The notes beneath the pieces are model-generated. The model was not told where the DNA came from, did not search any database, and was given only the letters and a program-made list of their open reading frames with translations. Of a stretch of 56,784 nucleotides of DNA, positions 1 to 56,784 are shown in pieces (position 1 is the stretch's first letter; each line of letters opens with the position of its first letter). Both the position numbers and the translations under genes were made by a program. This stretch comes from an uncultured Selenomonadaceae bacterium (GTDB taxonomy: Bacteria > Bacillota > Negativicutes > Selenomonadales > Selenomonadaceae), in the NCBI GenBank assembly GCA_905234705.1, contig CAJOIB010000005.1, forward strand, positions 1-56,784. Direction: 5' to 3'.

Positions 1-1
1 T

Positions 2-1312
2 TGGACGGGCGCGTCAACTGGTCCGGAATTGGACGGCGCATTGGCTGAAGTCAAGGGCATTAAACAGCGTTTGCCCTATCAAACCGACGCGAAACTTCGT
101 CCGGAAATTAACGACGGCACTGTGAATTATTTGGATTTGCATTTGTCAGAATCCGCGCAGTTGTCAAGAGTTGGCTATTTGGGAAAAATTGACGCGGCGA
201 TTGTTGAAGCCTGCGCGATAACCGAAGAGGGAAATATTATCCCGACGACTTCATTGGGCAACGCGGCAAGTTACGTACAAAGCGCTGATATTGTTATCGT
301 CGAGGTCAATACAACTCAACCCTTGGCGCTTGAAGGCATTCATGACGTTTATATTCCGCTCGACCCGCCAAATCGTTTGCCGATACCGCTGGTAAAAGCT
401 GATGACCGGATTGGTACGACTTACATTCCCTGTACGCCCGATAAAATTAAATTTATTGTGCCGTGCGATATTAAAGACCACACGCGCGACCTTTCACCGA
501 TTGACGAAAATTCTAAGCAGATGGCGAAATTTACGCTTGAATTTTTGCACAAGGAAATTGCGGCGGGGCGTATGCCGAAAAATTTGCTGCCGTTGCAGAG
601 CGGCGTTGGCAATGTGGCTAATGCGGTTTTGGCTGGCTTTGTCGATTCGGATATGCACGATTTAGTTGTTTATACTGAAGTTATTCAAGACGCGATGCTT
701 GATTTGATTGACGCGGGCAAATTGCGTATTGCTTCAGGAACTGCTTTTTCGCCGTCGCCTGCTGGTATGGACAGATTTTATAAAGACGTTGACAAGTACC
801 GGAAATATATTTTGCTTCGTCCGGAAGAAATTTCAAATTCGCCGGAAGTAGTTCACAGATTGGGCGTCGTGGCAATGAATACCGCGCTTGAAGTTGACAT
901 TTACGGCAATATTAATTCAACGCACGTTTGCGGTACGAAAATGATGAATGGCATTGGCGGCAGCGGCGATTTTGCGCGCAATGCTTATTTGACGATTTTT
1001 TATACGCCGAGTACTGCAAAGGGCGGCAAGATTAGTTCAGTTGTGCCGATGTGTTCTCACATTGACCATACCGAGCACGATGTTGACGTTATTATCACTG
1101 AGCAGGGAATTGCTGATTTGCGTGGGCTTGAGCCGCGTTCTCGCGCGTTGGAGATTATTAACAAATGCGCTCACCCCGATTATAAGCCAATGCTTCTGGA
1201 TTATTACGAGCGCGCTCTTACTGAAACTAAGAAAGCTAATACGCCACATTTGATTGACGAAGCTTTAAGTTTTCATTCACGTTTCCTCAAAACTGGCGAT
1301 ATGCATAAATAG
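2..1312 (+). CDS. Succinate/acetyl-CoA:acetate CoA-transferase family protein, 5' truncated by window edge
   Basis: Frame is open from base 2 (WTGASTGPELDGALAEVKG...); GASTGPELDG and GNIxSTHVCGTKMMNGIGGSGDFARNA motifs of the succinate CoA-transferase (Cat1/ScpC) family; the listed start at 29 is internal. Confidence 0.9.
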   Translation, partial: WTGASTGPELDGALAEVKGIKQRLPYQTDAKLRPEINDGTVNYLDLHLSESAQLSRVGYLGKIDAAIVEACAITEEGNIIPTTSLGNAASYVQSADIVIVEVNTTQPLALEGIHDVYIPLDPPNRLPIPLVKADDRIGTTYIPCTPDKIKFIVPCDIKDHTRDLSPIDENSKQMAKFTLEFLHKEIAAGRMPKNLLPLQSGVGNVANAVLAGFVDSDMHDLVVYTEVIQDAMLDLIDAGKLRIASGTAFSPSPAGMDRFYKDVDKYRKYILLRPEEISNSPEVVHRLGVVAMNTALEVDIYGNINSTHVCGTKMMNGIGGSGDFARNAYLTIFYTPSTAKGGKISSVVPMCSHIDHTEHDVDVIITEQGIADLRGLEPRSRALEIINKCAHPDYKPMLLDYYERALTETKKANTPHLIDEALSFHSRFLKTGDMHK

Positions 1313-1384
1313 GGGCTAGGGAATAGGGAAAAGGGTCTAGATTCTAATCACTAATCCCTTTACACTAATCCCTAATCCCTAAAA
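1310..1384. repeat. Telomere-like G-rich/C-rich intergenic block (gggctagggaatagggaaaaggg ... ccctttacactaatccctaatcccta)
   Basis: TAGGG-type units on the left half, CCCTAA-type units on the right half; resembles the block at 45502-45605. Confidence 0.7.
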
Positions 1385-1411
1385 AACTGACTGAAAGGAA
1401 GTTTTTTCACA

Positions 1412-2008
1412 ATGAGTTGTTTTACAAATGCTGTGACCAACCGCCGCTCGATTTACGCGCTGGGCAAAAATATTCCGGTGCTCGAATCTGAGATTATCGC
1501 GGTTGTCGAACGTATGACTAAGGAAGTTCCTTCGCCTTTCAATATTCAAAGCCAACGTGTTGTCGTAGCAATGGACGAATACCACGAAAATGTTTGGGAT
1601 ATTACAATTTCCAAAATGAAAGAAATTTTGACTGCAGAGGCTTTTTCTAAAACTGAACAGAAACTTGAGACCTTCAAAGCCGCTTACGGTACGATTTTAT
1701 TTTTTGAAGAAATTGACATTGTACACGACATGCAAAAGAAATTTCCAACCTACGCGGATAATTTTCCTATTTGGGCGTCACAGGCTAATGGTATGCTCCA
1801 ATTTGCAATTTGGACGGAACTTGAGAATATGGGTTTGGGCGTCAATATTCAACATTACAACCCGCTTATCAATGTGGATATTATAAAGGCGTTCAATATT
1901 CCGGATAATTGGGAACTTGCTGCACAAATGGTTTTCGGTGAAAAATTGCAACCTGCGGGCGCGATTGAAAAAGTTCCCGTATCAGAGCGCGTTAAAGTTT
2001 TTAGATGA
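1412..2008 (+). CDS. Nitroreductase family protein
   Basis: N-terminal NRRSIYALGK...PSPFNIQSQRVVV pattern and overall length of nitroreductase-like FMN proteins; RBS gaaaggaag upstream. Confidence 0.8.
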   Translation: MSCFTNAVTNRRSIYALGKNIPVLESEIIAVVERMTKEVPSPFNIQSQRVVVAMDEYHENVWDITISKMKEILTAEAFSKTEQKLETFKAAYGTILFFEEIDIVHDMQKKFPTYADNFPIWASQANGMLQFAIWTELENMGLGVNIQHYNPLINVDIIKAFNIPDNWELAAQMVFGEKLQPAGAIEKVPVSERVKVFR

Positions 2009-2022
2009 TTAATAATTATTAC

Positions 2023-2627: not shown

Positions 2628-4111
2628 ATGGCGACTGTTCAAGAAAAAATTGACTTAATGCACGCGAAGAAACAGGTAATTCGGCAAGGCGGCGGGCAAA
2701 AACGCATTGACGCCCAGCACAGCAAGGGCAAACTTACTGCCCGCGAAAGAATTGAAATGTTCTTCGACGAAGGCACTTTTATTGAGCTTGACATGTTCGT
2801 TAAGCATCGTTGCACAAATTTTGGGCAGGAAAAGAAAGATTTACCAGGTGAAGGTGTTGTTACCGGCTACGGCACGGTTGACGGGCGGCTTGTTTATGCA
2901 TTCGCGCAGGACTTCACGGTTGAAGGCGGCAGCTTAGGCGAAAAGCACGCTCATAAAATCTGGAAAGTTATGGATTTGGCTATGAAAATGGGCGCGCCTT
3001 TAATCGGCATTAATGATTCTGGCGGCGCGCGTATTCAAGAGGCTGTTGACGCTTTGCCGCAATACGGCGGCTTCGGGCGTCATTCCGCAAATTTCCGTCA
3101 TAATGGGACCTTGCGCGGGCGGCGCGGTTTATTCTCCTGCCATTACCGATTTTATTTACATGGTTAAAAATACCAGCCAAATGTTTATCACTGGTCCGGC
3201 GGTTATCAAATCTGTCACTGCGGAAGAAGTTACTGCTGAGGAACTCGGCGGCGCTATGACGCACAATAGCCGTTCGGGCGTGGCACATTTCGCGGCGGAA
3301 GATGAGCAGGATTGTATTAATCAGATTAGATATTTGTTAAGTTTCTTGCCGAGCAATAATTTGGAAGAAGCGCCGATTGTTGATACGGGCGATGACCCAG
3401 ACCGGCAGGAAGATTTTCTCAACACGATAATTCCCGATAATCCAAATGCGCCGTACGATATGAAAGAAGTTATCAAGGGCATTGTTGACAACGGCGAATT
3501 TTATGAAGTCCACAAATATTTTGCCACGAATATAATTACGTGTTTTGCGCGCTTTGACGGGCGGACGGTTGGTATCATTGCGAATCAGCCTGCGGTTATG
3601 GCGGGCTGTCTTGACGTTGACGCTTCAGATAAATCTGCGCGATTCATTCGTTTCTGCGACGCGTTTAATATTCCGCTGGTTAATCTGGTTGATGTTCCTG
3701 GATTTTTGCCTGGCGTTGACCAAGAACGCGAAAATGCTTTATGCATACAGTGAAGCGACAGTTCCGAAAGTTACTGTTATTACTCGCAAGGCTTATGGCG
3801 GTTCGTACATTGCGATGTGCTGCCGTGAATTGGGCGCGGATCAAGTTATGGCGTGGCCGAGCGCTGAAATTGCGGTTATGGGACCTGCGGGCGCGGCGAA
3901 TATTATTTTCCGCAAAGACCCCGATAAAGACCAGAAAACTGCTGAATACGTCGAAGAATTTGCAACGCCGTACAAGGCGGCTGAACGCGGTTATGCTGAT
4001 ATGATTATTGAGCCGAAGGAAACGCGTCCGCTGATTATCACGGCGCTCAATGCTCTTGCCAGCAAGCGCGAATCTGCGCCGACGAAAAAGCACGGCAACA
4101 TCCCGCTTTAA
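2628..4111 (+). pseudogene. mmdA: Methylmalonyl-CoA decarboxylase alpha subunit, split into three frames by two lesions (near 3056 and 3726)
   Basis: ORFs 2628-3167, 3013-3753 and 3545-4111 carry successive parts of a carboxyltransferase alpha subunit ([15 protein letters not shown] / [27 protein letters not shown] / [30 protein letters not shown]); segments expected between DAL and RNT and between DQE and AKM are missing. Confidence 0.85.
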
Positions 4112-4127
4112 AAAGGAGATGGCAGCG

Positions 4128-6165: not shown

Positions 6166-7128
6166 TTGTTGATAGGAAAATTCATTGATACCTGCCAGAC
6201 TGAAAAAATTTTTCCTGTGAAGAAAATCGTCGTGGCGGTATCTGGCGGCGCTGATTCACTTGCACTGGCGGATTTGATTAATCGCGCGCGACAACGTTTC
6301 AAGCTGAATTTTTGCATTGCGCATTTTGAACACGGTTTACGCGGGCAAGATTCGATTGACGACGCAAATTTTGTTGAAAGTTTTGCTAATGATTTGGGCG
6401 TTGAATTTTTCTGTAAGCACGGCGACGTTGCGAATTTCGCGGCTGAAAATAAAATTTCTGTCGAGACGGCGGCGCGTAAATTGCGCTATGAATTTTTATC
6501 CGAAATTCGGCAGCAATTAAATTTCGACGCGATAGCCTTAGCACATCACGCTAACGATCAAGCTGAAACAATTTTAATGCGGTTAATGCGCGGCTCAAGC
6601 CTAGACGGACTTTCGGCAATGAAATTCTGCGCGAGTTCGCCATACGGTTTGCTGATTCGCCCGCTGCTGCGTTTTAAAAAATCTGAACTTGAAAATTACT
6701 GCCGCGAAAGGAAATTAATTCCGCGCGTTGACGCCACGAATTTTGATGCCATTGCTACGCGCAATAAGATTCGGCTTGAACTTTTGCCGATGCTGGAGAA
6801 TTTTAATCCGGCGATTGTCGAAACGCTTTGCCGATTTGGCGAAACTGCCGCTGCTGAATCCGATTTCATTAACGCGGAAGTTGAAAAAATTTATCCTGCC
6901 GTTGTGAAAAATAAATCAGTCCTGCGCGACGAATTTTTAAAATTGCATGTGGCACTTCAGCGCGGCGTTATCAAAAAATTTATTGCTGAAACTTGCGGCG
7001 GCGTCAAGGATTTGGGCTTTGTGCATTTCGAGGCGCTCAGAAAAGTTTTGGCGAATAATTTATCCGGCGTCGAACTTCCCAAAAACATTCGCGCAGATTT
7101 GAGGCGCGGCAGGTTATCAATCACGTAA
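6166..7128 (+). CDS. tilS: tRNA(Ile)-lysidine synthase
   Basis: PP-loop VAVSGGADSLAL, HFEHGLRG, HHANDQAETILMRLMRGS. Confidence 0.9.
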   Translation: MLIGKFIDTCQTEKIFPVKKIVVAVSGGADSLALADLINRARQRFKLNFCIAHFEHGLRGQDSIDDANFVESFANDLGVEFFCKHGDVANFAAENKISVETAARKLRYEFLSEIRQQLNFDAIALAHHANDQAETILMRLMRGSSLDGLSAMKFCASSPYGLLIRPLLRFKKSELENYCRERKLIPRVDATNFDAIATRNKIRLELLPMLENFNPAIVETLCRFGETAAAESDFINAEVEKIYPAVVKNKSVLRDEFLKLHVALQRGVIKKFIAETCGGVKDLGFVHFEALRKVLANNLSGVELPKNIRADLRRGRLSIT

Positions 7129-7733: not shown

Positions 7734-9635
7734 TTGAATAGTTTTTTACGCAACGTCGGCTTTTATTTGCTGGTGATATTCGTTGCGATAACGGCGTATG
7801 ATTATTTTTCAGTGAAGCCGCAGGCAACAATCGAAGAAGTGAGTTACTCGCAATTCCTGCAACGCGTAGAATCGGGCGAAGTTTCAAAGGTCGTCTTAAC
7901 CAGAAATACAATCAAAGCCACGCGCAAAGACGGCACAGAATTTAACACGACAGCGCCGGATTTCCCAATAGGAGACGATGCGCTTGTAACGAAATTAGAA
8001 ACTGCCGGCGTCGAAATAACTGCACAAAATCCTAAAGAACCGCCGTGGTGGGTGACGCTCCTTTCGTCATTCTTGCCAATTTTAATCCTAGTAGGCGTGT
8101 GGTTCTTCATAATGAATCAAACGCACGGCACGGGCAGTAAGGTAATGTCATTCGGCAAAAGTCGGGCGAAAATGTCAAGCGGCGACAAAGTTAAAGTCAC
8201 ATTTAACGACGTGGCGGGCGCGGACGAAGCTAAGGAAGAACTCCAAGAAGTTGTTGAATTTCTCAAGCACCCGAAAAAGTTTAATGATTTAGGCGCGCGC
8301 ATACCTAAGGGCGTTTTGTTATTTGGTCCTCCAGGCACAGGTAAAACTTTATTGGCTAAGGCTGTTGCCGGTGAGGCGGGCGTAGCGTTTTTCTCAATCA
8401 GCGGCTCAGATTTTGTTGAAATGTTTGTAGGCGTGGGCGCATCGCGTGTTCGTGATTTATTCGCGCAGGCTAAGAAAAATTCGCCCTGCATAATTTTCAT
8501 TGATGAAATTGACGCAGTTGGTAGGCAACGCGGCGCGGGTTTCAGCGGCGGTCACGACGAACGCGAGCAGACTTTGAATCAGTTGTTGGTTGAAATGGAC
8601 GGTTTTGCGGCTAATGAAGGCATAATCATAATTGCCGCCACGAATCGCCCCGATATTCTTGACCAGGCGCTGTTGAGACCTGGCAGATTTGACAGACAGA
8701 TTGTAGTTGACAAGCCCGACATTACCGGCAGAATTGCGATTTTGAAAGTTCATTCCAAAGGCAAACCGATTGGCAAGGACGTTGATTTAGATGTTTTAGC
8801 GCGGCGGACGCCTGGGTTTACGGGCGCTGATTTGGCTAATTTGGTTAATGAAGCGGCGCTGTTGGCGGCTCGGCGCAATAAGCACGAAATTAATATGATT
8901 GAGCTTGAAGAATCGATTGAGCGCGTCATGGCTGGACCGGAGCGCAAATCCAAAGTTATGAGCGACGACGAAAAGAAATTGACAGCTTATCACGAAGGCG
9001 GGCACGCGCTGGTTGGTATGATGTTGAAACACGCTGACCCTGTTCACAAAGTTACAATTATTCCGCGCGGGCGGGCTGGCGGTTATACGCTGATGTTGCC
9101 TAAGGAAGACAGGAATTACGCCACGCGCTCAGAATTGCTTGACAGGCTGAAAGTGGCTATGGGCGGGCGCGTTGCCGAGGAAATTGTACTTAATGAAATT
9201 TCAACCGGTGCGTCGCAGGATATTCAACAGGCGAGCCGGATTGTTCGCTCAATGATTATGCAGTATGGTATGAGCGACGTACTTGGACCTGTGGCTTATG
9301 GCAGCGACCAGACGCAAATGTATTTTGGGCAGAATCAGCGCAATTATTCAGAGGAAGTTGCCGGCGAAATTGATAAGGAAGTTCACAAATACATGGAAGA
9401 GGCTTACGAATCTTGCCGGACGATTATCAATGAGAACCGCGATAAACTTGATAGAATCGCGCAGATGTTGATTGACAAGGAAACTTTGACGGCGGCGGAG
9501 CTCAAGGAAATTGTTTTCGGTACAAATGACAGCCCAATGATTGAGCTTTCTAAAAAAATTCCGGACGAATCAATCATTTTAGCTAAAGAAAATCCAGCGC
9601 CGATTTTAAATGATTCTAATCCGACGCCAGTTTAA
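7734..9635 (+). CDS. ftsH: ATP-dependent zinc metalloprotease FtsH
   Basis: AAA+ Walker [12 protein letters not shown] region, HEGGH zinc motif; TTG start. Confidence 0.97.
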
Positions 9636-9707: not shown

Positions 9708-10475
9708 TTGAAAGTAGTAATTTTGGCGGGCGGATTTGGCACGCGGATTAGTGAAGAGTCTCAGCTTATCCCTAAGCCAATGATTGAAATTGGCAGTCAT
9801 CCTATTTTGTGGCACATTATGAAGGAATACGCGCATTTCGGATTCAACGAATTTGTGATTTGCGCCGGATACAAGCAGCACATTATCAAAGAATATTTTG
9901 CCGATTACGCCCTGCACAACAGCGACATTACTTTTGATTTTCGCGGTGAGAATCGAATTAAAGTTCATAATAATTTTTCTGAGGATTGGAAAGTTACGGT
10001 TGTGGATACTGGCTACAGCACGACGACGGGCGGGCGCGTGAAAAAAATTCAGCCGTACATTACCGAAGAAAATTTTATGTTAACGTACGGCGACGGCGTT
10101 TCTGACGTTAATATTTCGGAGCTGGTAAAATTCCACGAATCGCACGGAAAAATTTGCACAATAACCGCGGTTAAGCCAGATAGCAGATTTGGCTATTTGG
10201 ATTTCGACGGCGATAAAGTTTTGGCGTTTCGCGAAAAATCCAAGGAAGATGTTGGTTATATCAACGCGGGCTATATGGTTTTGAGCGCGAAAGTTTTTGA
10301 TTATATCGAAGGCGATTATATGTTCGAGCAAGAGCCGATGCGCAAATTAACGGGCGACGGCGAGGTTATGGCGTATCGTCACGAGGGATTTTGGCAATGT
10401 ATGGACACACTGCGCGACAAAATGAAACTTGAAAATCTTTGGCAGAATGGCGCGCCATGGAAAACTTGGGCTTGA
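9708..10475 (+). CDS. rfbF: Glucose-1-phosphate cytidylyltransferase-like nucleotidyltransferase
   Basis: KVVILAGGFGTRISEESQLIPKPMIEIG; start corrected to TTG after aaaggag. Confidence 0.85.
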   Translation: MKVVILAGGFGTRISEESQLIPKPMIEIGSHPILWHIMKEYAHFGFNEFVICAGYKQHIIKEYFADYALHNSDITFDFRGENRIKVHNNFSEDWKVTVVDTGYSTTTGGRVKKIQPYITEENFMLTYGDGVSDVNISELVKFHESHGKICTITAVKPDSRFGYLDFDGDKVLAFREKSKEDVGYINAGYMVLSAKVFDYIEGDYMFEQEPMRKLTGDGEVMAYRHEGFWQCMDTLRDKMKLENLWQNGAPWKTWA

Positions 10476-10484: not shown

Positions 10485-11576
10485 ATGATAAACAAACAAT
10501 TTGAGCAGGATTTGAAATATACATTCGACAGTTTAAGTGAGATTGAGCGCGAAAATTTTTCCGGCAGTACGATTTTGCTGACGGGCAGCGCGGGGCATAT
10601 GGGCTGTTATTTTACGCATTTCCTGTATTATTTTCGCGAGCAACTGAATCTGAAGAAAGTTATTTGTCTTGATAGTTTTATTTTGGGCAAACCGACTTGG
10701 CACGAAAATTTGACGGACGAGCGCTTTATTTTTAAAAAGTTCGACGTAGTTAATGACGCACTTGAAGATATTCCGGAGGCGGCAAATGCCGATTATATTT
10801 TGCATATGGCTTCGGTTGCGTCGCCTACATTTTACCGCAAGCACCCGATTGAAACTTTGGACGCGGACGTTTGGGGCTTACGCAGGCTTTTAGAATTTTA
10901 CAAAGATAAGAATTTGCGCGGCTTTTTATTTTTCTCAACCAGCGAAATTTACGGCGACCCTCCGGCTGATAAAGTTCCCACCGTCGAAGATTATAACGGC
11001 AATGTCAGTACGAATGGTCCGCGCTCTTGCTACGACGAATCCAAACGTTTTGGCGAAACTATGTGCCGGTATTTCGCGCAGGAACACAATATGCCCATTG
11101 GCGTTGTTCGGCTGTTCAATACTTACGGCGAAGGTATGCGGATTAATGATAAACGCGTTCCTGCCGATTTTGCCAAAAATATTGTCGACGGCGAGGATAT
11201 AATTATTTTGTCGGACGGCACGCCCAGCCGCACTTTCTGTTATATCGCCGACGCGGTTGCTGGCTGTTTCAAAATTTTGTTGCACGGTGAATATGATTAT
11301 TTCAATATTGGAATGGATAAGCCGGAAATTTCCATTGTTAAGCTGGCTGAAATTTATCGTGAGGCGGGGCGCGAAATTTTTAATTACAGCGGAAAAATTG
11401 ACTACTCGGTTTCTGAAGACAAAGATTATTTGACGCACAATCCGCAACGCCGCTGCCCGAATATTGACAAGGCAAGGAAGATTTTAAATTACAATCCGAC
11501 AATTCTGGTTGAGGAAGGCGTCCGGAGATTTTTAACATTTATCAAAGAAAGTCCGAGGGAGAATCTGATATGGTGA
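10485..11576 (+). CDS. NAD-dependent epimerase/dehydratase (SDR nucleotide-sugar enzyme)
   Basis: TGSAGHMG Rossmann motif, SVASPTFYRKHP, STSEIYGDP, YDESKR catalytic YxxxK. Confidence 0.85.
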   Translation: MINKQFEQDLKYTFDSLSEIERENFSGSTILLTGSAGHMGCYFTHFLYYFREQLNLKKVICLDSFILGKPTWHENLTDERFIFKKFDVVNDALEDIPEAANADYILHMASVASPTFYRKHPIETLDADVWGLRRLLEFYKDKNLRGFLFFSTSEIYGDPPADKVPTVEDYNGNVSTNGPRSCYDESKRFGETMCRYFAQEHNMPIGVVRLFNTYGEGMRINDKRVPADFAKNIVDGEDIIILSDGTPSRTFCYIADAVAGCFKILLHGEYDYFNIGMDKPEISIVKLAEIYREAGREIFNYSGKIDYSVSEDKDYLTHNPQRRCPNIDKARKILNYNPTILVEEGVRRFLTFIKESPRENLIW

Positions 11577-12811
11577 CGGTATTTGGATTAGGATTTGTGG
11601 GCTTGACGACGGCGTTAGGCTTTGCGCATTTGGGCTATAAAGTTTATGGCGTTGACGTTGACGCCGAACGTAAAGCTACACTTCGCGCTGGAAATTTACC
11701 TTTCCTTGAGAAGCACATGGATGAAGTTCTGCGCGAACATTTGAACAAAAATTTTTTCGTGACGGACGACATTAAAAGCGCGGTTGCTGATAGCGAAATT
11801 ATTTATTATTGCGTTGGGACGCCGTATAGCGCGGACGGCAGCGCAGATTTGAAATATTTATTTTCGGCGGTTGATATGACGATTAACGCCGTTTCTGATG
11901 AAAAATTCCGCGTGCTCGTCACTAAGTCCACAATTCCGCCTTCGACGACCGCTGAAAAAATTATTCCTTACGTCGACAAAAAAACCGGCGGCTCCAAAAA
12001 TTTTGCCGTGGCGAATAATCCGGAATTTCTGCGCGAAGGGCATTGCTGGGAAGATTTTCTCGGCGCTGACAGAATTGTTATCGGCTGTGACAACGAAAAA
12101 GCGCGCGAGAAACTGGTTAAACTTTACGCGCCTATGAACATTCCCATTAAATGCGTGACGCCGTCGACTGGCGAATTTATAAAATATCTGTCGAATACTT
12201 TGCTTGCCACGCTGATTAGCTATTCAAATGAAATGGCTCAGGTTGCCGACACAATTGGCGATATAGAAGTTGCCGAGGCGTTCAAGATTTTGCATATGGA
12301 TAAACGCTGGAATCATTGTAATATGACGACTTACGTTTACCCTGGCTGCGGTTACGGCGGTTATTGCCTGCCCAAAGATACCAATGCAATGTTCGCGCAG
12401 AGCAAGGCTAAGGGCTTTGAGCCACAGATTTTGAAAAATGTCATTGAGACGAACAATCGGCGTCCGGCGACTATCGCAAAAAAAATTGTCAAAAACCTGG
12501 ATAAACATTCGACGATTGGAATTTTGGGCTTAAGTTTCAAGCCGCTCTCTGACGACGTGCGAGATACTCCGGCGTTGCGTATTATTCAAGAAATTTTGTC
12601 GCTGGGCTACAAAAATATCGTAGCGTACGATCCGGCGGCGAATGAAGAATTTGCTAAACGTTATCCTGACGTGCCTATTAAAATTATGAGTACAGCGCGG
12701 GAAGTTTATGACGCGGCGAATGTTATTGCGATTGTAACTGCGTGGAATGAATTTAAAGACGTTCCCAATTTTGGCGATAAGCCGATTATTGATTGTCGAT
12801 ATATGTTTTGA
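11570..12811 (+). CDS. Nucleotide-sugar dehydrogenase, UDP-glucose/GDP-mannose dehydrogenase family
   Basis: VFGLGFVGLTTALGFAHLG, YPGCGYGGYCLPKDTNA, LGLSFKPLSDDVRDTPA. Confidence 0.9.
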   Translation: MVTVFGLGFVGLTTALGFAHLGYKVYGVDVDAERKATLRAGNLPFLEKHMDEVLREHLNKNFFVTDDIKSAVADSEIIYYCVGTPYSADGSADLKYLFSAVDMTINAVSDEKFRVLVTKSTIPPSTTAEKIIPYVDKKTGGSKNFAVANNPEFLREGHCWEDFLGADRIVIGCDNEKAREKLVKLYAPMNIPIKCVTPSTGEFIKYLSNTLLATLISYSNEMAQVADTIGDIEVAEAFKILHMDKRWNHCNMTTYVYPGCGYGGYCLPKDTNAMFAQSKAKGFEPQILKNVIETNNRRPATIAKKIVKNLDKHSTIGILGLSFKPLSDDVRDTPALRIIQEILSLGYKNIVAYDPAANEEFAKRYPDVPIKIMSTAREVYDAANVIAIVTAWNEFKDVPNFGDKPIIDCRYMF

Positions 12812-14789: not shown

Positions 14790-15284
14790 TTAGCTGATTT
14801 TGCCGTCGCGAATGAGCTCGCGCGCCGCTTTGCCGGTTAAATGTTCAATTTCGAGAATCATAATTTTAACGGCGTTGACGCGGGCGAGTTCCCTGTCGCG
14901 GAGATTTTTATCAACATTAGGCGAATATTTATCAGCAAGGAGTTCGAGCGCGTGAATTTTATCGGCGTCATTTTCGGCGATACGGATTTTGCCAAAGGCG
15001 ATAGCGCTGGAATAGTAGCTGGTAAATTCTTCGGCAATGACGGCGTGCTGACCGACGACGCAGAATGAAACTTTGTCGTTGTTTTGAATGGCGTCGAGTT
15101 TGTGACCGGTGAGGGCGCTGTGGAAATAAATTTTGTTATCGGCAAAGGCGTAATTGAGCGGCACGGCGTAATTGTAGCCGTCGTCGCCGGTAAGAGCCAA
15201 TACGCCAAATTCGCCTTCGCGCAGAATTTTTTCCGCGGTTTCAAATTTCAGCGCGCATTTAACGCGGCGCATTTCCCTAAACAT
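14790..15284 (-). CDS. Pyridoxamine 5'-phosphate oxidase family / nitroimidazole-resistance-like protein
   Basis: GVLALTGDDGYNYAVPLNYAF...IYFHSALTGHKLDAI...VSFCVVG; start corrected to ATG following aggtgat. Confidence 0.8.
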   Translation of the reverse strand: MFREMRRVKCALKFETAEKILREGEFGVLALTGDDGYNYAVPLNYAFADNKIYFHSALTGHKLDAIQNNDKVSFCVVGQHAVIAEEFTSYYSSAIAFGKIRIAENDADKIHALELLADKYSPNVDKNLRDRELARVNAVKIMILEIEHLTGKAARELIRDGKIS

Positions 15285-40343: not shown

Positions 40344-40366
40344 TCGCGCAGGAATTTTCTGCTCAG

Positions 40367-46268: not shown

Positions 46269-46829
46269 CTAGCGTTTTGCAACATTCACTTTTTCGATAT
46301 TCGCCGCAAAAATTGAAAATTCCATTTCGCAGTCTAAAATATTGGTTTTGCCGTCGCTCTCAATGGAGAAATTTTCAAAATTCACCAGCCGCGCGCCGTC
46401 AACAACTTCGCGAATAAAATTCAACAGCGAAATATATTCAGCTTCTGCGCGAATTTTTATGGACTGTGTTTGAATTTCGCCGCCGGAATTTTCGCCGGTT
46501 TGTACCGAATAAATCAAAATATTTTTCGCGTCCGCCAGATTGTAAAGTTCTGCAATAAATTTTTCATCGTCCATTTCAGCGGGAAAATATTCCTGCGCGA
46601 GTGCAAGGCGTTCGTCGTTCGTTTCGACAAAATCCTCAAAATTGCCGTGCCGCGTCTGCAATTTGGAAATTTCCGCGCGAATTAGTTGGATTTGCCGCGT
46701 TTCCGTTTTGAATTTTAAAATCTCGCTTTGAATTGGAAGGTAAATCAGTTGCCAATAAAAAATTCCAATCGTCGCGCAGATTAGCAGGGTTAGGAGCGGC
46801 AAAAGTTTTTTCTCCATAAGATTTACCAA
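46269..46829 (-). CDS. PilO-like type IV pilus assembly protein
   Basis: Short N-terminal TM, coiled coil, then ferredoxin-like domain pattern (ILIYSVQTGE...YISLLNFIREVVDGARLVNFENFSI). Confidence 0.65.
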   Translation of the reverse strand: MVNLMEKKLLPLLTLLICATIGIFYWQLIYLPIQSEILKFKTETRQIQLIRAEISKLQTRHGNFEDFVETNDERLALAQEYFPAEMDDEKFIAELYNLADAKNILIYSVQTGENSGGEIQTQSIKIRAEAEYISLLNFIREVVDGARLVNFENFSIESDGKTNILDCEMEFSIFAANIEKVNVAKR

Positions 46830-47126: not shown

Positions 47127-47507
47127 TTAAAATGGTACGTTATCATCAAACGGCGGATCTGCTTCGGGCTCGGGTTCAGATTCAGAACTTCCGCCTTGCC
47201 TGCGCGAACTACTGCCAAATTCAATATTTTCGATTTGAATATTGACGCTGTAATGTTTCACGCCGTCTTTTCCTTCGTAATTGTCATTTTCAACGCGTCC
47301 CTCAACAATAACGCTAGAGCCTTTTTTGAGATAGCGGCTACAAAATTCAGCCGTCTTATCCCACGCCGTCAAATTGAAAAAGTCAACGGTATCTCTGCTG
47401 AAACGGCGATTTACAGCAATTCCCATTTTAGCAATCGCCTTACCGTTTTGAGTGTAGCGAATTTCGGGGTCGCGCGTCAAATTTCCGGAAAGAATTACCT
47501 TGTTCAT
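47127..47507 (-). CDS. ssb: Single-stranded DNA-binding protein
   Basis: [34 protein letters not shown]; acidic tip [10 protein letters not shown]. Confidence 0.95.
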
Positions 47508-47946: not shown

Positions 47947-50900
47947 TTGATGGCAGAAATTGTAATAAAAACGCAAGAAAATTTCAAAGGCAAAATTTAT
48001 GCCTACACAACGCCAGGTGTAACCTATCACGAAGGCTGGCTGAAAATTGGCTACACCGAGCAAGATGTTGAAACGCGAATTAAACAACAAACGCATACTG
48101 CCGGAATTAATTATATCATTCAGTGGGTTATCGGCGCGCCGTGCAATATCAAGGATACCGATTTTCACCGATATCTCATTGATAAATACAAAATCCCGCG
48201 CGATAAAAAATATATCGAATGGTTTAAGATTGATCCGAACGTTGCTAAAAAATATCTTGAAGAATTTAATCTTGGCAAAACTAAAAATAAAATTGAAATT
48301 ATATGCCAAAGTTACGACCTGCGCACTGAGCAACAGCAAGCCGTCGACATTACGAAAAAATATTTTGAGGACGGTACAAAGCCACGCGAATTTTTATGGA
48401 ATGCTAAGCCGCGTTTCGGAAAAACTTTGACTGCGTACGATTTTATTTTGCAAATTGGCGCGCAGAAAGTTTTAATCGTGACAAATCGCCCCAGCATTGC
48501 AAATTCTTGGTTCGACGATTTCAAAACTTTTATTTCGTGGCGCGAAGAAAATTATAAATTTGTCAGCAAAACCGACGCCCTTAAAAATCAAGAAATTTTA
48601 AGCCGCGAAGAATTTATAAAGCTGTTCGACAGTGACACCAGCGATAACAAACCGCGTATGATCGCCTTTGTCAGTTTGCAGGATTTGAAAGGATCTAAAC
48701 ATTTCGGCGGCACTGGCAAGGAAAAGTTGGACTGGATTAAGGATTTGGAATTTGATTTGCTCATTGTTGACGAAGCGCACGAAGGTGTTGACACTCATCG
48801 AACGGAAGAGGCTTTTAAAAATATCAAACGCAATTTTACGCTGTACCTGTCCGGCACGCCGTTTAAAGCCCTTGCTAATGATAAATTTCGCGAAGATCAG
48901 ATTTTCAACTGGTCCTATGAAGATGAGCAAGCCGCTAAAAATAATTGGGGTGCTGAATTTGCTAATCCTTATTCGGATTTGCCGAAAATGAATCTGTTCA
49001 GTTACCAACTTTCAAAAATTATTCTCGATAAAATCAACGCCGGTATCGCTTTTAATGATGAGAATTTCGATTACGCATTTGATTTGAATGAACTTTTTCG
49101 TACAGAAAATAGTAAATTTATCTACGAAGATAAGGTTAAAAAATTTCTTGACGCTTTGACAAAAAATAAAAAATTTCCATTCACAGCGGAATTTCGCGCA
49201 GAATTGAAACATACCTTTTGGCTGATGTATCGCGTTGACAGCATTAAGGCGATGGCTAAACTTTTGAAGGAGCACGAAATTTTTAGCGAATATGAAATTG
49301 TCATAGCGGCGGGCGACGGCAAAGTTGACGAATCCGACGAAAAACTCAATCAAAAAAGTTTGGCGAAAGTTAGGGATGCTATTGCTAATCACGACAAAAC
49401 TATCACGTTAAGCGTCGGGCAACTTACCACCGGCGTCACTGTTCCCGAATGGACAGCTGTTTTAATGCTCAGTAATATTCAAAGCGCGGCAGAATATATG
49501 CAAGCGGCTTTTCGTGCTCAAAATCCTTATGTTCACCAAATCGGCGATAAAACTTTCCGCAAAACTAACTGTTATATTTTTGACTTCGCTCCCGAACGTA
49601 CGTTGAAAATTTATGATCAGTTCGCCAATAACCTAAAAACCGGCGGCGGTTCTCGGCGAGAAAATATTGAAAAGCTGAAAAATTTTTTCCCCGTGCTGGC
49701 TGAAGATGACAACGGCGAAATGATTGAACTTGACGCCGAAAAAATTATATCCTTGCCGCAAATTATCACTGCGCAAAAAGTTGTCGATACCGGATTTATG
49801 AGCAATGAACTTTTTGCAAATATTACTCACGTATTCGGCGCGCCTCAAAGCGTCGTTGCTGTCATTGAAAAATTTATCCCCGACGATACGCCCGAAAATA
49901 AGAAAATTAAAATCAATGCGGAAGATATTAAAGGCGTGCAGGTAGATTCGGACGGGAACGTAATTATCAATAAAACTGAGGCGCATTTAGGCAAAAAATC
50001 TAAGCGTGATAAAAAACCCGTCGCGCAGGACGTTAAGGAAATTGCTGCTGAAATTACCGAAAATCTCAAAGCCGCCGGTTATGACATTAATAAAAATGTT
50101 ACCAAGAAAATTGAGAGCCGCCTCAAAAATGACACCAGCGAAGAAAATATTGACAAGGTCGAACAGGAGATTATAAATCTGCTCGAAACTAAAAAAGCTA
50201 ATGCCAAAAAAGAATCCATTGAGGCGAAAATTCGGGCGCACTTGCGCGGCTTTGCCCGTACCGTTCCCAGTTTTATTATGGCGTATGGCAACAGAAATTT
50301 GACGCTGGCGAATTTTGAAACTTACATTGACGATGAAACTTTCAAAGACGTTACCGGCATTGACAAGGCGGATTTTCGATTTCTGCGCGACGGCGGCGTT
50401 CGTAACGGCGAAAATTTTGCAGGACATTTATTCGACGAAGAAATTTTCAACGCCGCTGTTCAAGAATTTCTCAACCGCAAAGACGAACTCGCGGATTATT
50501 TCGACGAGAGCCACGACAAAGATATTTTCGACTACATACCGCCGCAAAAAACTAGTCAGATCTTCACGCCGCGCTTTATCGTCAAGGCAATGGTTGACGC
50601 GCTCGCCGCTGAATCGCCCAATATTTTCTGCAACCCCAATCAAATTTTTATCGACCCGTATATGAAATCCGGCATGTACATTACCGAAATTGTCAAGCGG
50701 CTCTTTAAAAATCTTCGCGCAGATTTCGCCAGCGACGCCGATTGTTTGCGCCACATTTTGGAAAATCAAGTTTACGGCTTCGCGCCAAATGAAATTATTT
50801 ATCGAATCGCCACGGAATATATTTTCGGCAGGCACAAGGATATTCAGCGCAGGAATTTTTTCCGCAGAGATTTAACTGACGTTGTGCAAACCGGCGATGC

Positions 50901-52494
50901 TACTGACTTCTTAAAAAAAAATTTTGTGATTAAGGTGATTATCTTGAATAAGGAGCGCGTTAAAAAATTCGGCGAAGTTTTCACGCCGACCGATATTGTC
51001 AATCGAATGCTCGACGACGAAAATCTTGCTGAAATTTGGCAGGATATTGACGCTAAAATCCTTGAGCCAACCGCCGGTGAAGGCGCGTTCCTTGTGCCGA
51101 TTCTGCTCCGCAAATTGGCGCTCGCTAAAAATCCCAACGATATGTTTCACGCGCTCGCCAGCATTTACGCCATCGAAATTCAGCCCGACAATCTCGAAAT
51201 CGCCAAACAAACTCTGCGCGAAATTTTCATTGCCTGGCACGAAGAAAAATTTGGTACTTTCGACGAAGATACTTTTGGCGAATTTGTTGACAATATTATC
51301 GACGCCAATATCATTCTCGGCGACGCCCTTAACAAAAAAACTGCCGCCGGTACTGACATTGAATTTATCGATTGGAATTTGGACGACTTCAAACCTGCGC
51401 GAAATTTTTTCTATTCGCATTTAACCGCCGAGGGCTCATTGAAATTCATTGACGCCAGCTTTGCGGTTATAATTGGCAATCCGCCGTATCAGCTGGATAC
51501 CAAGGGCGATAATAAAACTTACGCCGCGCCCATTTATCACAAATTCCTTGAATCTTTTTGGCGCGCTTGCAACCGCGTGATGATGATTCACCCTGCGCGA
51601 TGCCTTTTCCAAGCCGGCGGCACTCCCAAAGATTTTATGCGAAATTTGCTTGCCGACGAACATATCAAAGTTATTTTTTACGAAGCTGACAGCAGCAAGA
51701 TTTTTAAGAATACCGATATTAAAGGCGGCGTCGCCGTCACTTACCGCGATGCCAATAAAAATTTCGGCGCTATCGGCGTTTACATTCCATTTCCCGAATT
51801 GCAGACCATTTTTCAAAAAGCCGTCGCCAATAATGCTGATTTTCAACCGTTTAGTAAAATTGTTTATCCGCGTGCCGACCGCAAATTGAGCGATAAATTT
51901 TTTGCTGATTATCCAGATTCGCCGCTGAAAAATAATGACGCTATCGGCACAAATGCTTTTACTAAGTTTCCGGAAATTTTTTCTGATGATAAACCGAATG
52001 ACGGGCGCGAATATATTCAGATTTTGGGGCGAATTGGCGTCAAGCGCGTTTACAAATGGATTCGCCGCGATTATGTTAAATCTTTGGACAATCTCGACAA
52101 GTACAAAGTGTTTATTCCGAGTTCAAATGGTTCGGGTGCTATTGGTGAAGTAGTGAGTACTCCGCTTGTCGGCTTGCCGCTTGTCGGCTTGCCGCTTGTC
52201 GGCAGTACGGAGACCTTTACAGGCGTCGGAGCGTTCGATAGCGCGGCGGAAGCGGGTGCTTGCTTAAAATATATCAAAACTAAATTTGCAAGGGCTTTGC
52301 TGGGCATTTTAAAGGTTACGCAACATAACCCGTCCGAAACTTGGCGGTATGTTCCCATGCAAGATTTTTCAGCAGATAGTGATGTAGATTGGTCGCGCAG
52401 TGTTGCCGAAATTGACAAATATTTATACAAAAAATATAATCTGTCGCAGGAAGAAATAAATTTTATCGAGACGAAAATTAAGGCGATGGAGTGA
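47947..52494 (+). CDS. Giant single-chain restriction-modification protein: GIY-YIG-type nuclease + SF2 helicase + two methylase-like modules + recognition region
   Basis: KIYAYTTPGVTYHEGWLKIGYTEQDVETRIKQQTHTAGI; AKPRFGKTLTAYDF, VDEAHEG, LYLSGTPFKAL; IFTPRFIVKAMVDAL..DPYMKSGMYITEIVKRLF; KKFGEVFTPTDIVNRML, LEPTAGEGAFLVPIL, VIIGNPPYQLD. Confidence 0.9.
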   Translation: MMAEIVIKTQENFKGKIYAYTTPGVTYHEGWLKIGYTEQDVETRIKQQTHTAGINYIIQWVIGAPCNIKDTDFHRYLIDKYKIPRDKKYIEWFKIDPNVAKKYLEEFNLGKTKNKIEIICQSYDLRTEQQQAVDITKKYFEDGTKPREFLWNAKPRFGKTLTAYDFILQIGAQKVLIVTNRPSIANSWFDDFKTFISWREENYKFVSKTDALKNQEILSREEFIKLFDSDTSDNKPRMIAFVSLQDLKGSKHFGGTGKEKLDWIKDLEFDLLIVDEAHEGVDTHRTEEAFKNIKRNFTLYLSGTPFKALANDKFREDQIFNWSYEDEQAAKNNWGAEFANPYSDLPKMNLFSYQLSKIILDKINAGIAFNDENFDYAFDLNELFRTENSKFIYEDKVKKFLDALTKNKKFPFTAEFRAELKHTFWLMYRVDSIKAMAKLLKEHEIFSEYEIVIAAGDGKVDESDEKLNQKSLAKVRDAIANHDKTITLSVGQLTTGVTVPEWTAVLMLSNIQSAAEYMQAAFRAQNPYVHQIGDKTFRKTNCYIFDFAPERTLKIYDQFANNLKTGGGSRRENIEKLKNFFPVLAEDDNGEMIELDAEKIISLPQIITAQKVVDTGFMSNELFANITHVFGAPQSVVAVIEKFIPDDTPENKKIKINAEDIKGVQVDSDGNVIINKTEAHLGKKSKRDKKPVAQDVKEIAAEITENLKAAGYDINKNVTKKIESRLKNDTSEENIDKVEQEIINLLETKKANAKKESIEAKIRAHLRGFARTVPSFIMAYGNRNLTLANFETYIDDETFKDVTGIDKADFRFLRDGGVRNGENFAGHLFDEEIFNAAVQEFLNRKDELADYFDESHDKDIFDYIPPQKTSQIFTPRFIVKAMVDALAAESPNIFCNPNQIFIDPYMKSGMYITEIVKRLFKNLRADFASDADCLRHILENQVYGFAPNEIIYRIATEYIFGRHKDIQRRNFFRRDLTDVVQTGDATDFLKKNFVIKVIILNKERVKKFGEVFTPTDIVNRMLDDENLAEIWQDIDAKILEPTAGEGAFLVPILLRKLALAKNPNDMFHALASIYAIEIQPDNLEIAKQTLREIFIAWHEEKFGTFDEDTFGEFVDNIIDANIILGDALNKKTAAGTDIEFIDWNLDDFKPARNFFYSHLTAEGSLKFIDASFAVIIGNPPYQLDTKGDNKTYAAPIYHKFLESFWRACNRVMMIHPARCLFQAGGTPKDFMRNLLADEHIKVIFYEADSSKIFKNTDIKGGVAVTYRDANKNFGAIGVYIPFPELQTIFQKAVANNADFQPFSKIVYPRADRKLSDKFFADYPDSPLKNNDAIGTNAFTKFPEIFSDDKPNDGREYIQILGRIGVKRVYKWIRRDYVKSLDNLDKYKVFIPSSNGSGAIGEVVSTPLVGLPLVGLPLVGSTETFTGVGAFDSAAEAGACLKYIKTKFARALLGILKVTQHNPSETWRYVPMQDFSADSDVDWSRSVAEIDKYLYKKYNLSQEEINFIETKIKAME
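52162..52203 (+). repeat. 15-bp in-frame tandem repeat, 2.8 copies (ccgcttgtcggcttg)
   Basis: ccgcttgtcggcttg x2 plus ccgcttgtcggc; encodes PLVGLPLVGLPLVG in the C-terminal region of the restriction-modification protein. Confidence 0.95.
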
Positions 52495-53160: not shown

Positions 53161-54907
53161 CAACGAGCGCGAAATAGATTTGACGGAGCAACGCAGTTTG
53201 CACGTACGCGAAAAAAAGGTAAGCTGGGCGCGAATGGGCGTATTTGCGACGGCGATTCTCAGCTTTGCAATCGGCTGGGATTATTACGAAGCGGGCTATT
53301 GGGGCGCGTTGGTTTTATTTTTAATATTTCTGCGGTTAGTGGGCTATCACGACGAAATTCGGCGGCGGCAAAAATTTTTAACCAGCCGATTGAATGTGTT
53401 AAATTCGTACATAGTGCGGGCGCGCGGAACCTGGCGCAAACGTTCAAATGACGGCAGCACTTACCTAAACAATGACAGACCGCAAGACGTAGATTTATAT
53501 ATTTTCGGTGAAGGCTCAATTTTTCAGTACATCTGCGCGGCTCGTACGAAACGCGGGCGTGACAGATTAGCAGAATCATTATCGCCATTTCCGCCGGTAG
53601 ATTTTGCGCCGGTACGAACTCGTCAGCACGGCGTAGAAGAATTATTACAGCGCCCAAGATTATCATTGGATTTGGAAGCGCTCGCCCGATTAATGCCGAA
53701 CAATCACGACACCACGGATTTAATAAAATCTGTTGAAGAGCCGCCGCCGCATCCGGACAAAATTTTATTGCTGAGATTTTTGCCGTTGCCGATATTTTTA
53801 ATCCAGTGCGCGCTGACGTATCGCGGGATTTTAGACGCGGTACTTTTGCCGGTCGTACCGTTTTTGTCGTTGTTGCTGGCGTTTGCGCTGTTGCGGCGGA
53901 CTTCGGAATTGTTAAAGCCGGTGCAAATCATTTCCAAAGAATTGAAATTGTATCAAGCGATATTTGAGCGGCTGGAAAGTACAGATTTCAGTTCGCGCAG
54001 TTTGAGCAAGATTCGCGCAGATTTGACGGACGAAGTATCGGCGGCGCAAAATTTGAAAGTGCTGTCACTGTTAATGAGTTTTGTAAATTCGCGGAAAAAT
54101 CCGGTGTTTTACATTTTGGGCAATGGGTTATTTTTGCTGGACTTTTTTTGTGCGGCGGCGTTTATTAAGTGGCGGGAGACGGCGGCTAAGCATTTGCGGA
54201 AATGGCTGGACGCTTGGTCGGAAGCCGAAGTTTTAATGAGTTTTGCGTCGATAGGGCAAACGCGCACGAATTATTGTTTCCCGAAACTTTTGGACAGAGA
54301 CACGCCGCGAATCAAGGCGAAAAATTTAACCAGCCTATTAATCGCCGATAAAAAAGCTGTGGCGAATAGCGCGGATTTGCGGGCGAGTACAACGATAATC
54401 ACGGGCGCGAATATGTCGGGCAAAACTACTTGGATAAGGACGCTGGCAAGTGCGGTATTGCTGGCGTATGCGGGCGCGCCGGTTTGTGCTGAAAGTTTTT
54501 CCGTAAGCAAGATGGCGATTTTTACTTCAATTCGCGTCAATGACGACATTAGCCAGGGCATGTCAACGTTTTATGCTGAATTGTTGCGGATTAAGAGCAT
54601 GATTGAGTACAGCGAAAATAAATTGCCAATGCTGATATGTATCGACGAAATTTTCAAGGGCACGAATGAAGACGATCGGATTATGGGTGCGAAGGAAGCG
54701 ATTAAGCGGCTGACTAACGGCTTGAGCATAACGCTGGTGACGACGCACGATTTTGATTTATGTTCGATGGAAAACATTACAAATTCGCACTTTCAAGAGT
54801 ATTATGAAGGCGACCAGATAAAATTTGACTTTAAACTGCGCGAGGGACGCTGTACAACTACCAATGCGAAATACTTATTACGAATGGCAGGCATTTTAAC
54901 CGATTAA
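53141..54907 (+). CDS. Membrane-associated MutS-family ATPase
   Basis: ITGANMSGKTTWIRTLASAVLLAYAGAPVCAE, ICIDEIFKGTNEDDRI, LVTTHDFDL; hydrophobic segments near residues 35-70 and 215-250. Confidence 0.85.
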   Translation: MNRAFYDNEREIDLTEQRSLHVREKKVSWARMGVFATAILSFAIGWDYYEAGYWGALVLFLIFLRLVGYHDEIRRRQKFLTSRLNVLNSYIVRARGTWRKRSNDGSTYLNNDRPQDVDLYIFGEGSIFQYICAARTKRGRDRLAESLSPFPPVDFAPVRTRQHGVEELLQRPRLSLDLEALARLMPNNHDTTDLIKSVEEPPPHPDKILLLRFLPLPIFLIQCALTYRGILDAVLLPVVPFLSLLLAFALLRRTSELLKPVQIISKELKLYQAIFERLESTDFSSRSLSKIRADLTDEVSAAQNLKVLSLLMSFVNSRKNPVFYILGNGLFLLDFFCAAAFIKWRETAAKHLRKWLDAWSEAEVLMSFASIGQTRTNYCFPKLLDRDTPRIKAKNLTSLLIADKKAVANSADLRASTTIITGANMSGKTTWIRTLASAVLLAYAGAPVCAESFSVSKMAIFTSIRVNDDISQGMSTFYAELLRIKSMIEYSENKLPMLICIDEIFKGTNEDDRIMGAKEAIKRLTNGLSITLVTTHDFDLCSMENITNSHFQEYYEGDQIKFDFKLREGRCTTTNAKYLLRMAGILTD

Positions 54908-54926
54908 TCAATCAACCAAAACAAAA

Positions 54927-55032
54927 GAGCGCCCAAGGACGGGCGCTCCCTGTGGCGCGCTAGTCGCGTGATGCGACTAATGCGCCGCGCTTTTCTTTGC
55001 TAGGCGTTTCTTTTTCGCAAAAAGAAATGCCG
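54927..55032 (-). repeat. Structured intergenic repeat family, copy 5 (reverse orientation)
   Basis: Reverse complement: gcATTTCTTTTTgcgAAAAAGAAAcgcctagcaaagaaaa, TTAGTCGC-atcac-GCGACTAG, GAGCGCCC-gtcctt-GGGCGCTC. Confidence 0.85.
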
Positions 55033-55041
55033 ATATACGCT

Positions 55042-56784
55042 TTATTTTTTAACAATAGTTTTAATGTAGAGTTCGCGCAGTTGTTTATCGTCAACTTCGG
55101 AAGGCGCGTGGCTCATTGGGTCGATAGCGCTTTGAGTTTTCGGGAATGCAATTACGTCGCGAATGGATTTTCTTTGCGCCATGAGCATAACAAGCCTATC
55201 AAGCCCAAATGCAATACCACCGTGCGGCGGCGTGCCATATTCAAACGCGTCCATTAAGAAACCAAATTTCGCGCGCGCCTCTTCCTGCGAAAGTCCAATA
55301 GCCTCAAAAACTTTTTCCTGCAAATCGCTCTGATAAATTCTCAAACTACCGCCGCCAACTTCAACGCCATTCAAAACTATATCGTACGCATTAGCCTTAA
55401 CTTTTTCCGGCGCAGTCAATAAAAATTCAATATCTTCTTCACGCGGCGAAGTGAACGGGTGATGCATTGCCTTCCAACGTTTATCTTCCTCAACGTATTC
55501 AAACATCGGAAAATCGACAACCCACAGGAAACAAAGTTTATTTGCGTCAATCAAATTGCGACGGCGCGCCATTTCCAATCTAAGCTCGCCTAACGCCTGC
55601 GCGACAACCGAAGGCTTATCGCCAACAACCAACAGCAAGTCACCAGTCTTAGCGCCGGTGGCTTTTTTAATTTGCTCAAAAGTTTCGTCGCTGTAAAATT
55701 TCTTGAACGGCGATTTGATACCTTCAGCGCTGTATTGAATCCAAGCCATACCCTTTGCGCCGTAAATCTTGCAGTATTCGACAAGTTCATCAAGTTCGCG
55801 GCGCGGGATGTCAGCATAACCTTCAACGTTGATAACTTTAACCTGCCCGCCATTTTCCAAAACGCTGTTGAAAACTTTGAAAGTCGAGCCTTTGACGTAA
55901 TCGGAAATGTCCTGCAGTTCCATACCAAAACGCAAATCCGGCTTGTCACTGCCAAAACGATTCATAGCTTCGTCCCAGCTCATTCTCAAAAATGGCGTCT
56001 CAATTTTCACGTCAAGCGTCGATTCAAAAATTTTCTTAATCAAGCCTTCCATGAGCGTCAAAATATTTTCTTGGTTTAAAAATGAAGTTTCAATATCCAG
56101 TTGTGTAAACTCGGGCTGGCGGTCGGCGCGTAAATCTTCATCGCGGAAACAGCGCACTATCTGAAAATATTTTTCAAAGCCGGAAACCATTAACAGCTGT
56201 TTGAAAATCTGCGGCGATTGCGGCAATGCGTAAAATTGCCCAGGATTTAAGCGGCTCGGTACAAGAAAATCACGCGCGCCTTCCGGAGTCGAACGACAAA
56301 GCATCGGCGTTTCAATTTCCAAAAATCCATTTTCATCAAGATAATCGCGCATTATTTTAGTTACGCGGTGGCGGAGCATAATATTCTGCTGCATTTCCGG
56401 ACGGCGCAAATCCAAATAGCGATAGCGCAGTCTAACATTTTCGTCAACATCAACGCCATCTTGAATATAAAACGGCGGCGTCTTTGCCTTGTTCAAAATC
56501 CTAAGCTCATTAACGACAATTTCAATTTCGCCGGTATCCATTTTCGGATTAACGGTATCAGCACTGCGCGCCCGAACTTTGCCGCGAACGCCGATAACAA
56601 ATTCGTTGCGCAAAGTTTCAGCCTTTGAAAAAGTGTCGCCCATTTCCGCCGCGTCAAAAACTATCTGCACAATGCCGCTGCGGTCTCTCATATCCACAAA
56701 AATTAAGCCGCCGTGGTCGCGCCTGCGCGATACCCAACCAGCCAGCTGTACTGTTTTACCTTCATCAACTTTGCGGAGCTCACC
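55042..56784 (-). CDS. aspS: Aspartyl-tRNA synthetase, N-terminus beyond window edge
   Basis: Frame open to window end (GELRKVDEGKTVQLAGWVSRRRDHGGLIFVDMRDRSG); RYLDLRRPEMQQNIMLRHRV, FRDEDLRADRQPEFTQLD, GIAFGLDRLVMLM. Confidence 0.96.
   Translation of the reverse strand, partial: GELRKVDEGKTVQLAGWVSRRRDHGGLIFVDMRDRSGIVQIVFDAAEMGDTFSKAETLRNEFVIGVRGKVRARSADTVNPKMDTGEIEIVVNELRILNKAKTPPFYIQDGVDVDENVRLRYRYLDLRRPEMQQNIMLRHRVTKIMRDYLDENGFLEIETPMLCRSTPEGARDFLVPSRLNPGQFYALPQSPQIFKQLLMVSGFEKYFQIVRCFRDEDLRADRQPEFTQLDIETSFLNQENILTLMEGLIKKIFESTLDVKIETPFLRMSWDEAMNRFGSDKPDLRFGMELQDISDYVKGSTFKVFNSVLENGGQVKVINVEGYADIPRRELDELVEYCKIYGAKGMAWIQYSAEGIKSPFKKFYSDETFEQIKKATGAKTGDLLLVVGDKPSVVAQALGELRLEMARRRNLIDANKLCFLWVVDFPMFEYVEEDKRWKAMHHPFTSPREEDIEFLLTAPEKVKANAYDIVLNGVEVGGGSLRIYQSDLQEKVFEAIGLSQEEARAKFGFLMDAFEYGTPPHGGIAFGLDRLVMLMAQRKSIRDVIAFPKTQSAIDPMSHAPSEVDDKQLRELYIKTIVKK

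Follow-up and report, generated by a model that had tools for sequence, protein, structure and literature searches.

A hyper-abundant octamer with clade-specific dialects in rumen Selenomonadaceae, a candidate DNA-uptake-type signal

Results

A single eight-base word, TCGCGCAG, recurs throughout contig CAJOIB010000005.1 (assembly GCA_905234705.1), a 56,784-nucleotide stretch of DNA from an uncultured Selenomonadaceae bacterium that was analysed in full and is referred to here as the window. On the + strand the exact count is 32 copies of TCGCGCAG and 33 of its reverse complement, CTGCGCGA, matching the figure of about 65 estimated in an initial annotation made from the sequence by eye, whose ten example coordinates are all correct. 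The word is the most over-represented octamer of the window, occurring 65 times where 3.5-4.7 copies are expected from order-2 and order-3 Markov models (z ~28-33). A genome-wide excess had been set beforehand as a test of the signal, and it is indeed present. The genome to which the window belongs (G000; a fragmented assembly of 2,050,508 bases in 128 contigs, 85% complete) contains 1145 forward and 1149 reverse copies, compared with 123 and 130 for the reversed word used as a control. The 2294 copies in 2.05 Mb, against 253 for the control, represent a ~9-fold excess and a density of ~1/kb. The proposal that one-base variants are nearly absent did not hold, as in the densest genomes their sum (287) is near the Markov expectation of 361 (ratio 0.79). 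The copies in the window, all exact matches, are listed below; rows on the - strand are CTGCGCGA when read on the + strand.

2902..2909, + strand, TCGCGCAG
7089..7096, + strand, TCGCGCAG
8461..8468, + strand, TCGCGCAG
9457..9464, + strand, TCGCGCAG
11074..11081, + strand, TCGCGCAG
12393..12400, + strand, TCGCGCAG
12853..12860, + strand, TCGCGCAG
15217..15224, + strand, TCGCGCAG
16346..16353, + strand, TCGCGCAG
16738..16745, + strand, TCGCGCAG
18743..18750, + strand, TCGCGCAG
21482..21489, + strand, TCGCGCAG
22327..22334, + strand, TCGCGCAG
23250..23257, + strand, TCGCGCAG
24108..24115, + strand, TCGCGCAG
24726..24733, + strand, TCGCGCAG
28699..28706, + strand, TCGCGCAG
32295..32302, + strand, TCGCGCAG
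32506..32513, + strand, TCGCGCAG
32828..32835, + strand, TCGCGCAG
37103..37110, + strand, TCGCGCAG
38240..38247, + strand, TCGCGCAG
40344..40351, + strand, TCGCGCAG, intergenic, immediately 3' of the clpB stop codon
41185..41192, + strand, TCGCGCAG
46772..46779, + strand, TCGCGCAG
49194..49201, + strand, TCGCGCAG
50021..50028, + strand, TCGCGCAG
50715..50722, + strand, TCGCGCAG
52393..52400, + strand, TCGCGCAG
53993..54000, + strand, TCGCGCAG
54013..54020, + strand, TCGCGCAG
55073..55080, + strand, TCGCGCAG
211..218, - strand, TCGCGCAG
3635..3642, - strand, TCGCGCAG
6627..6634, - strand, TCGCGCAG
6922..6929, - strand, TCGCGCAG
10410..10417, - strand, TCGCGCAG
11729..11736, - strand, TCGCGCAG
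12029..12036, - strand, TCGCGCAG
14263..14270, - strand, TCGCGCAG
16084..16091, - strand, TCGCGCAG
17048..17055, - strand, TCGCGCAG
19066..19073, - strand, TCGCGCAG
21661..21668, - strand, TCGCGCAG
21877..21884, - strand, TCGCGCAG
23655..23662, - strand, TCGCGCAG
25676..25683, - strand, TCGCGCAG
26992..26999, - strand, TCGCGCAG
29820..29827, - strand, TCGCGCAG
35863..35870, - strand, TCGCGCAG
39096..39103, - strand, TCGCGCAG
40806..40813, - strand, TCGCGCAG
40895..40902, - strand, TCGCGCAG
43027..43034, - strand, TCGCGCAG
43255..43262, - strand, TCGCGCAG
46445..46452, - strand, TCGCGCAG
46593..46600, - strand, TCGCGCAG
47200..47207, - strand, TCGCGCAG
50383..50390, - strand, TCGCGCAG
51214..51221, - strand, TCGCGCAG
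51395..51402, - strand, TCGCGCAG
51593..51600, - strand, TCGCGCAG
54836..54843, - strand, TCGCGCAG
55597..55604, - strand, TCGCGCAG
56723..56730, - strand, TCGCGCAG

Across 27 loci in six genomes the two strands carry 278 and 290 copies (heterogeneity p=0.98). All six classes of codon phase and orientation are occupied (sense 159 : antisense 148). The density is 1.19/kb in coding and 1.00/kb in intergenic DNA. The strand balance and the independence from codon phase put forward in the initial annotation are thus borne out, as is the copy directly after clpB, whose open reading frame ends at 40343. Equal use of the strands, occupation of every phase and presence in both genic and intergenic DNA are properties of DNA uptake sequences (DUS) and uptake signal sequences (USS). 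Very close pairs are under-represented, with 17 gaps of ≤100 bp versus 46 in simulations, as expected if a single site per fragment is enough.

The preference for a preceding T and a following purine noted earlier was confirmed at frequencies of 0.40 and 0.77, respectively, while C follows TCGCGCAG in 2% of cases compared with 21% after other GCAG. The extended form of the word is TCGCGCAG-R-W-n-T. A related word described below, CCGCGCAG, behaves likewise: C directly after the core is held to 1-4% in both, and both cores carry a one-sided tail consisting of a purine (R), then W and then a T run (R-W-T-T). A GC core followed by such a tail is the layout of the Haemophilus uptake sequence, for which the H. 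influenzae consensus is aAAGTGCGGTnrwtttt (PMC1939737).

The distribution of the word among relatives was explored in 151 family genomes and 66 genus genomes. The relatives of the window's MurA are rumen 'Selenomonadaceae bacterium' metagenome-assembled genomes, with Quinella sp. 1Q5 inside the same clade, a Quinella-related placement that derives from a one-gene tree. L069, from the rumen of a red deer, is the closest relative in this tree, its MurA being 95% identical, and contains 37 copies of TCGCGCAG in 21 kb. Strong TCGCGCAG signal was found only in G000, G012, G079, G160, G138, G167 and G150, and the word marks one clade of a genus of rumen Selenomonadaceae to which Quinella is close. 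Analysis of k-mers in fetched loci, followed by whole-genome counts, showed that other genus members have a different dominant word, each clear carrier possessing a single dominant NNGCGCNN word. In a large clade this is CCGCGCAG (985/1022 copies in G144 versus 133/145 for the control; 780/822 versus 121/130 in G128). We refer to TCGCGCAG and CCGCGCAG as the T and C dialects. They are nearly exclusive, as G000 contains only 69/63 copies of CCGCGCAG (132 in total; control 213). Two further words are palindromes, namely CTGCGCAG, with 477 sites versus 44 for the control in G058 and a weak signal in G162 (80 versus 12), and the 10-base TCCGCGCGGA, with 841 versus 5 in G131 and 592 versus 3 in G117. 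The T and C words are not palindromic. The flanks of the palindromic dialects are symmetric, which is inevitable since both strands were counted. No clear dominant word was evident in G113, G070 and G098. The first of these, sister to the T clade, is mildly enriched in several NCGCGCAG words, none dominant (L146, L163, L164 and L264), and is perhaps losing or switching its dialect.

The dialects follow phylogeny. In a tree of ClpB and a P-type ATPase the T genomes fall into a single clade with a support of 0.985. The C genomes form a group inside which the CTGCGCAG genome G058 is placed, and G131 and G162 form a pair. Such phylogeny-congruent dialects are also a property of DUS/USS systems, as in Neisseriaceae (PMC3630211).

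Within a dialect the individual sites are conserved. Compared with composition-matched GC-rich octamers at orthologous positions, T sites are preferentially kept between G000 and G012 (46/57 versus 50%, p=3e-6), G012 and G079 (38/43 versus 34%, p=8e-13) and G000 and L069 (15/17 versus 30%). Even in G167, at 75% DNA identity, ~47-50% of the sites of G000 or G012 remain, versus 21-23% of controls. C sites are similarly retained between G092 and G128 (8/10 versus 17%). T sites fare no better than controls in genomes that have another dialect or no word (1/16 versus 12%; 3/22 versus 20%), and T and C sites are seldom seen at the same place. These data indicate that the dialects became established mostly independently of one another and seldom by in-place conversion. 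Where an orthologous place lacks the word, the alignment shows no insert. A genome-wide, conserved and dialect-forming word exists in this genus.

The genus also encodes components of a putative DNA-import route. ComEC is present in 62/66 of its genomes and an outer-membrane secretin in 64/66, with PilB- and PilT-type ATPases in nearly all genomes tested. This is the machinery of DUS/USS systems, although genomes in which no word was detected have it too, so its presence fits uptake but neither discriminates between explanations nor tracks the motif. The pilO-like gene reported earlier in the window is present, if barely above the Pfam cut-off:

46269..46829, - strand, PilO-like gene (PF04350, E=1.2e-4, 22.7 bits versus a cut-off of 22)

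It is isolated, lying right after the ssb/rpsR ribosomal cluster without PilM or PilN neighbours, and is possibly a component of a putative pilus or uptake machine. Natural competence is proven in a different member of the Negativicutes, Veillonella parvula, with a preference for DNA from its own genome (PMC5397411).

Prophages carry the dialect of their host at about half the host density. In T hosts, 12 kb of portal loci contain 8 T words and 1 C word; in C hosts, 24.8 kb contain 13 C and 6 T words. Both words are almost absent from related phages that infect other hosts, with 21 T and 27 C copies in 1.01 Mb. Although the sample is small, this shows that resident DNA acquires the word, which fits both an uptake signal and a motif of the type of HIP1, the cyanobacterial highly iterated palindrome. 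The idea that prophages lacking the motif would prove host selection was rejected, as the prophages carry the host dialect. The two portal loci of G000, L309 (contig C41) and L302 (C39), differ in that one has an in-frame stop and four copies and the other is intact with one.

Other features of the window and related genomes

The gene at 47947-52494 encodes a 1515-residue single-chain restriction-modification protein (T5orf172, ResIII helicase and Eco57I-type methylase). It contains eight copies of the motif and a repeated PLVGLPLVGLPLVG stretch, and has relatives in G167 and G150. As a reader of the word it was rejected, since the stretch homologous to G012 reaches only to 47910, beside rpsF, and no match to the gene was present in the fetched loci of G012, although the motif density of that genome is among the highest. 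A carboxyltransferase-like gene (2628-4111) and a flagellin gene (17006-18266) are each split over overlapping open reading frames in different frames, probably through assembly indels or real frameshifts. At 53141-54907, adjoining a PIN-domain gene, is a MutS-family protein that comprises the domain III/V part alone. Elsewhere, a GTCGCACCCTTC-containing unit occurs ~30 times in G172 (L105-L106), resembling a CRISPR array, and G170 (L107-L108) includes contigs of 17% GC, probably contamination from another organism.

Discussion

The phylogeny-following dialects, the conservation of sites within each dialect and the USS-like polar tail support the view that the word may be an independently evolved DNA-uptake-type signal, a reading to which, from sequence, we give an even chance. 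In this model TCGCGCAG would be a recognition word kept genome-wide at ~1/kb, and a sequence-specific DNA-binding component, probably in the type IV pilus/secretin/ComEC import route of this outer-membrane-bearing Firmicute, would prefer fragments that bear it. Recombination of such fragments would spread the word and maintain it in place on both strands, and shifts of specificity by one or two bases in related lineages would have given rise to CCGCGCAG, CTGCGCAG and TCCGCGCGGA. Both the identity of the reader as an uptake receptor and the occurrence of transformation itself are inferred. The broader claim, that a self-DNA uptake signal has arisen independently for a third time, and for the first time in a Firmicute, with at least four exclusive dialects of which two are palindromic, appears to us a little short of even. 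Dialect-forming uptake sequences have been established for two families of Proteobacteria (PMC3630211, PMC7811141). In the open-access literature searched we found no paper on an uptake sequence in Negativicutes or Firmicutes, and none describing a Firmicute word of this kind with dialects. Competence, pili and methyltransferases go unmentioned in the main text of the paper on the Quinella genome.

Several observations weigh against an uptake signal. Two of the dialects are perfect palindromes, which places them nearer to HIP; to our knowledge no DUS or USS is a perfect palindrome. Among the copies examined there were no inverted close pairs of the terminator-like kind that is frequent in Neisseria and Haemophilus. 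ComEC, secretin and PilB genes are equally present in G098, G040, G142 and G070, in which no motif was detected. Such pilus genes as were seen lie scattered, and of the two secretins of G012 one lies inside a Tad pilus cluster while the other stands alone. A ComP-like receptor was not recognised in the fetched pilus loci, no genome-wide search having been made. The host dialect in prophages also suits a process inside the cell, and the study of V. parvula competence considered that this species was unlikely to have a DUS (PMC5397411). The uptake signal proposed in the initial annotation is therefore strengthened by abundance, codon phases, strand balance, dialects, conservation and tail, and weakened by the genomes that have the same genes but no detected word and by the persistence of a HIP1-like rival.

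In that rival the word is generated and maintained by a DNA methyltransferase acting with methylation-directed mismatch repair or some other process that depends on methylation, and dialects change with methylase specificity. The ~1/kb density, the GC-rich words with a fixed GCGC centre, the palindromes CTGCGCAG and TCCGCGCGGA and the host dialect in prophages are all consistent with this, and the replacement of words between lineages and the avoidance of close pairs resemble HIP1 and alternate HIPs (PMC4390886). However, neither of the two commonest dialects is a palindrome, and the one-sided AT tail of T and C sites is unusual for methylase targets. Furthermore, in a genome-wide survey directed at the C5 family (PF00145) alone among the methylase classes, the strong carriers G128, G086, G140, G146, G149, G125, G181 and G150 gave no match. 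This makes a C5-methyl GCGC model unlikely and leaves a C5-cytosine methylase unsupported as the common cause. Overall we regard a HIP1-like origin as unlikely, albeit the foremost of the alternatives. A binding site for a chromosome-maintenance or nucleoid protein, acting in repair, compaction or segregation without strand polarity and co-evolving with its dialects, would explain the strand symmetry, the even genic and intergenic density, the conserved sites and the close-pair avoidance. A candidate protein was not identified, however, and we know of no such system with ~1 site/kb and single-base dialects; it too seems improbable.

The remaining explanations conflict with the data more directly. 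A Chi- or KOPS-type (FtsK-orienting polar sequence) signal for recombination or segregation would suit an octamer of this density, but the lack of polarity (32:33 in the window and no bias across the six genomes) excludes it in practice, and we consider it highly improbable. A by-product of codon usage or composition, or of a dispersed repeat or mobile element, is scarcely credible, even though GC-rich codons are common in these genes. Composition and codon bias were rejected on the Markov excess and the use of all six phases, the reversed control being nine-fold rarer and close relatives of similar composition having no word or another one. A mobile repeat was likewise rejected, because the copies share only the word and its short tail and word-less orthologous places show no trace of an insert.

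If an uptake signal operates in this outer-membrane Firmicute, sequence-gated bacterial sex would have evolved repeatedly, and the one-base dialect switches within a genus would offer natural variation with which to find the receptor. For rumen microbiology it would hint at a route of genetic exchange in an uncultured bacterium. If the word is instead HIP-like, it would represent a HIP outside the cyanobacteria, one whose words are asymmetric and whose dialect changes have a clean phylogeny, and would bear on the long-open function of HIP.

Chi and KOPS are likewise over-represented octamers but, unlike TCGCGCAG, are strand-polarised. Cyanobacterial HIP1 has a similar density, palindromes, replacement of words between lineages and an association with methylases (PMC4390886). 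HIP1 (GCGATCGC) and alternate HIPs are, like the words described here, GC-rich hyper-abundant octamers at ~1/kb that are replaced between lineages, and the words of G058, G131 and G117 are palindromic as well. The T and C dialects differ in being non-palindromic and in having a polar tail, and many carriers lack a C5-methylase. The USS of Pasteurellaceae shares the short GC-rich core, the one-sided R-W-T-T AT tail and the ~1/kb density, whereas the word here has another core, lacks a clear second AT tract at a distance of one helical turn and avoids close pairs. The DUS of Neisseriaceae, read by the minor pilin ComP, belongs to another phylum and is another word; the system described here, known from sequence alone, is without inverted close pairs and includes fully palindromic dialects. 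The two are nevertheless alike in a density of ~1/kb on both strands, one dominant word per genome, dialects of one to two bases that are congruent with phylogeny, and an outer-membrane host with secretin and ComEC.

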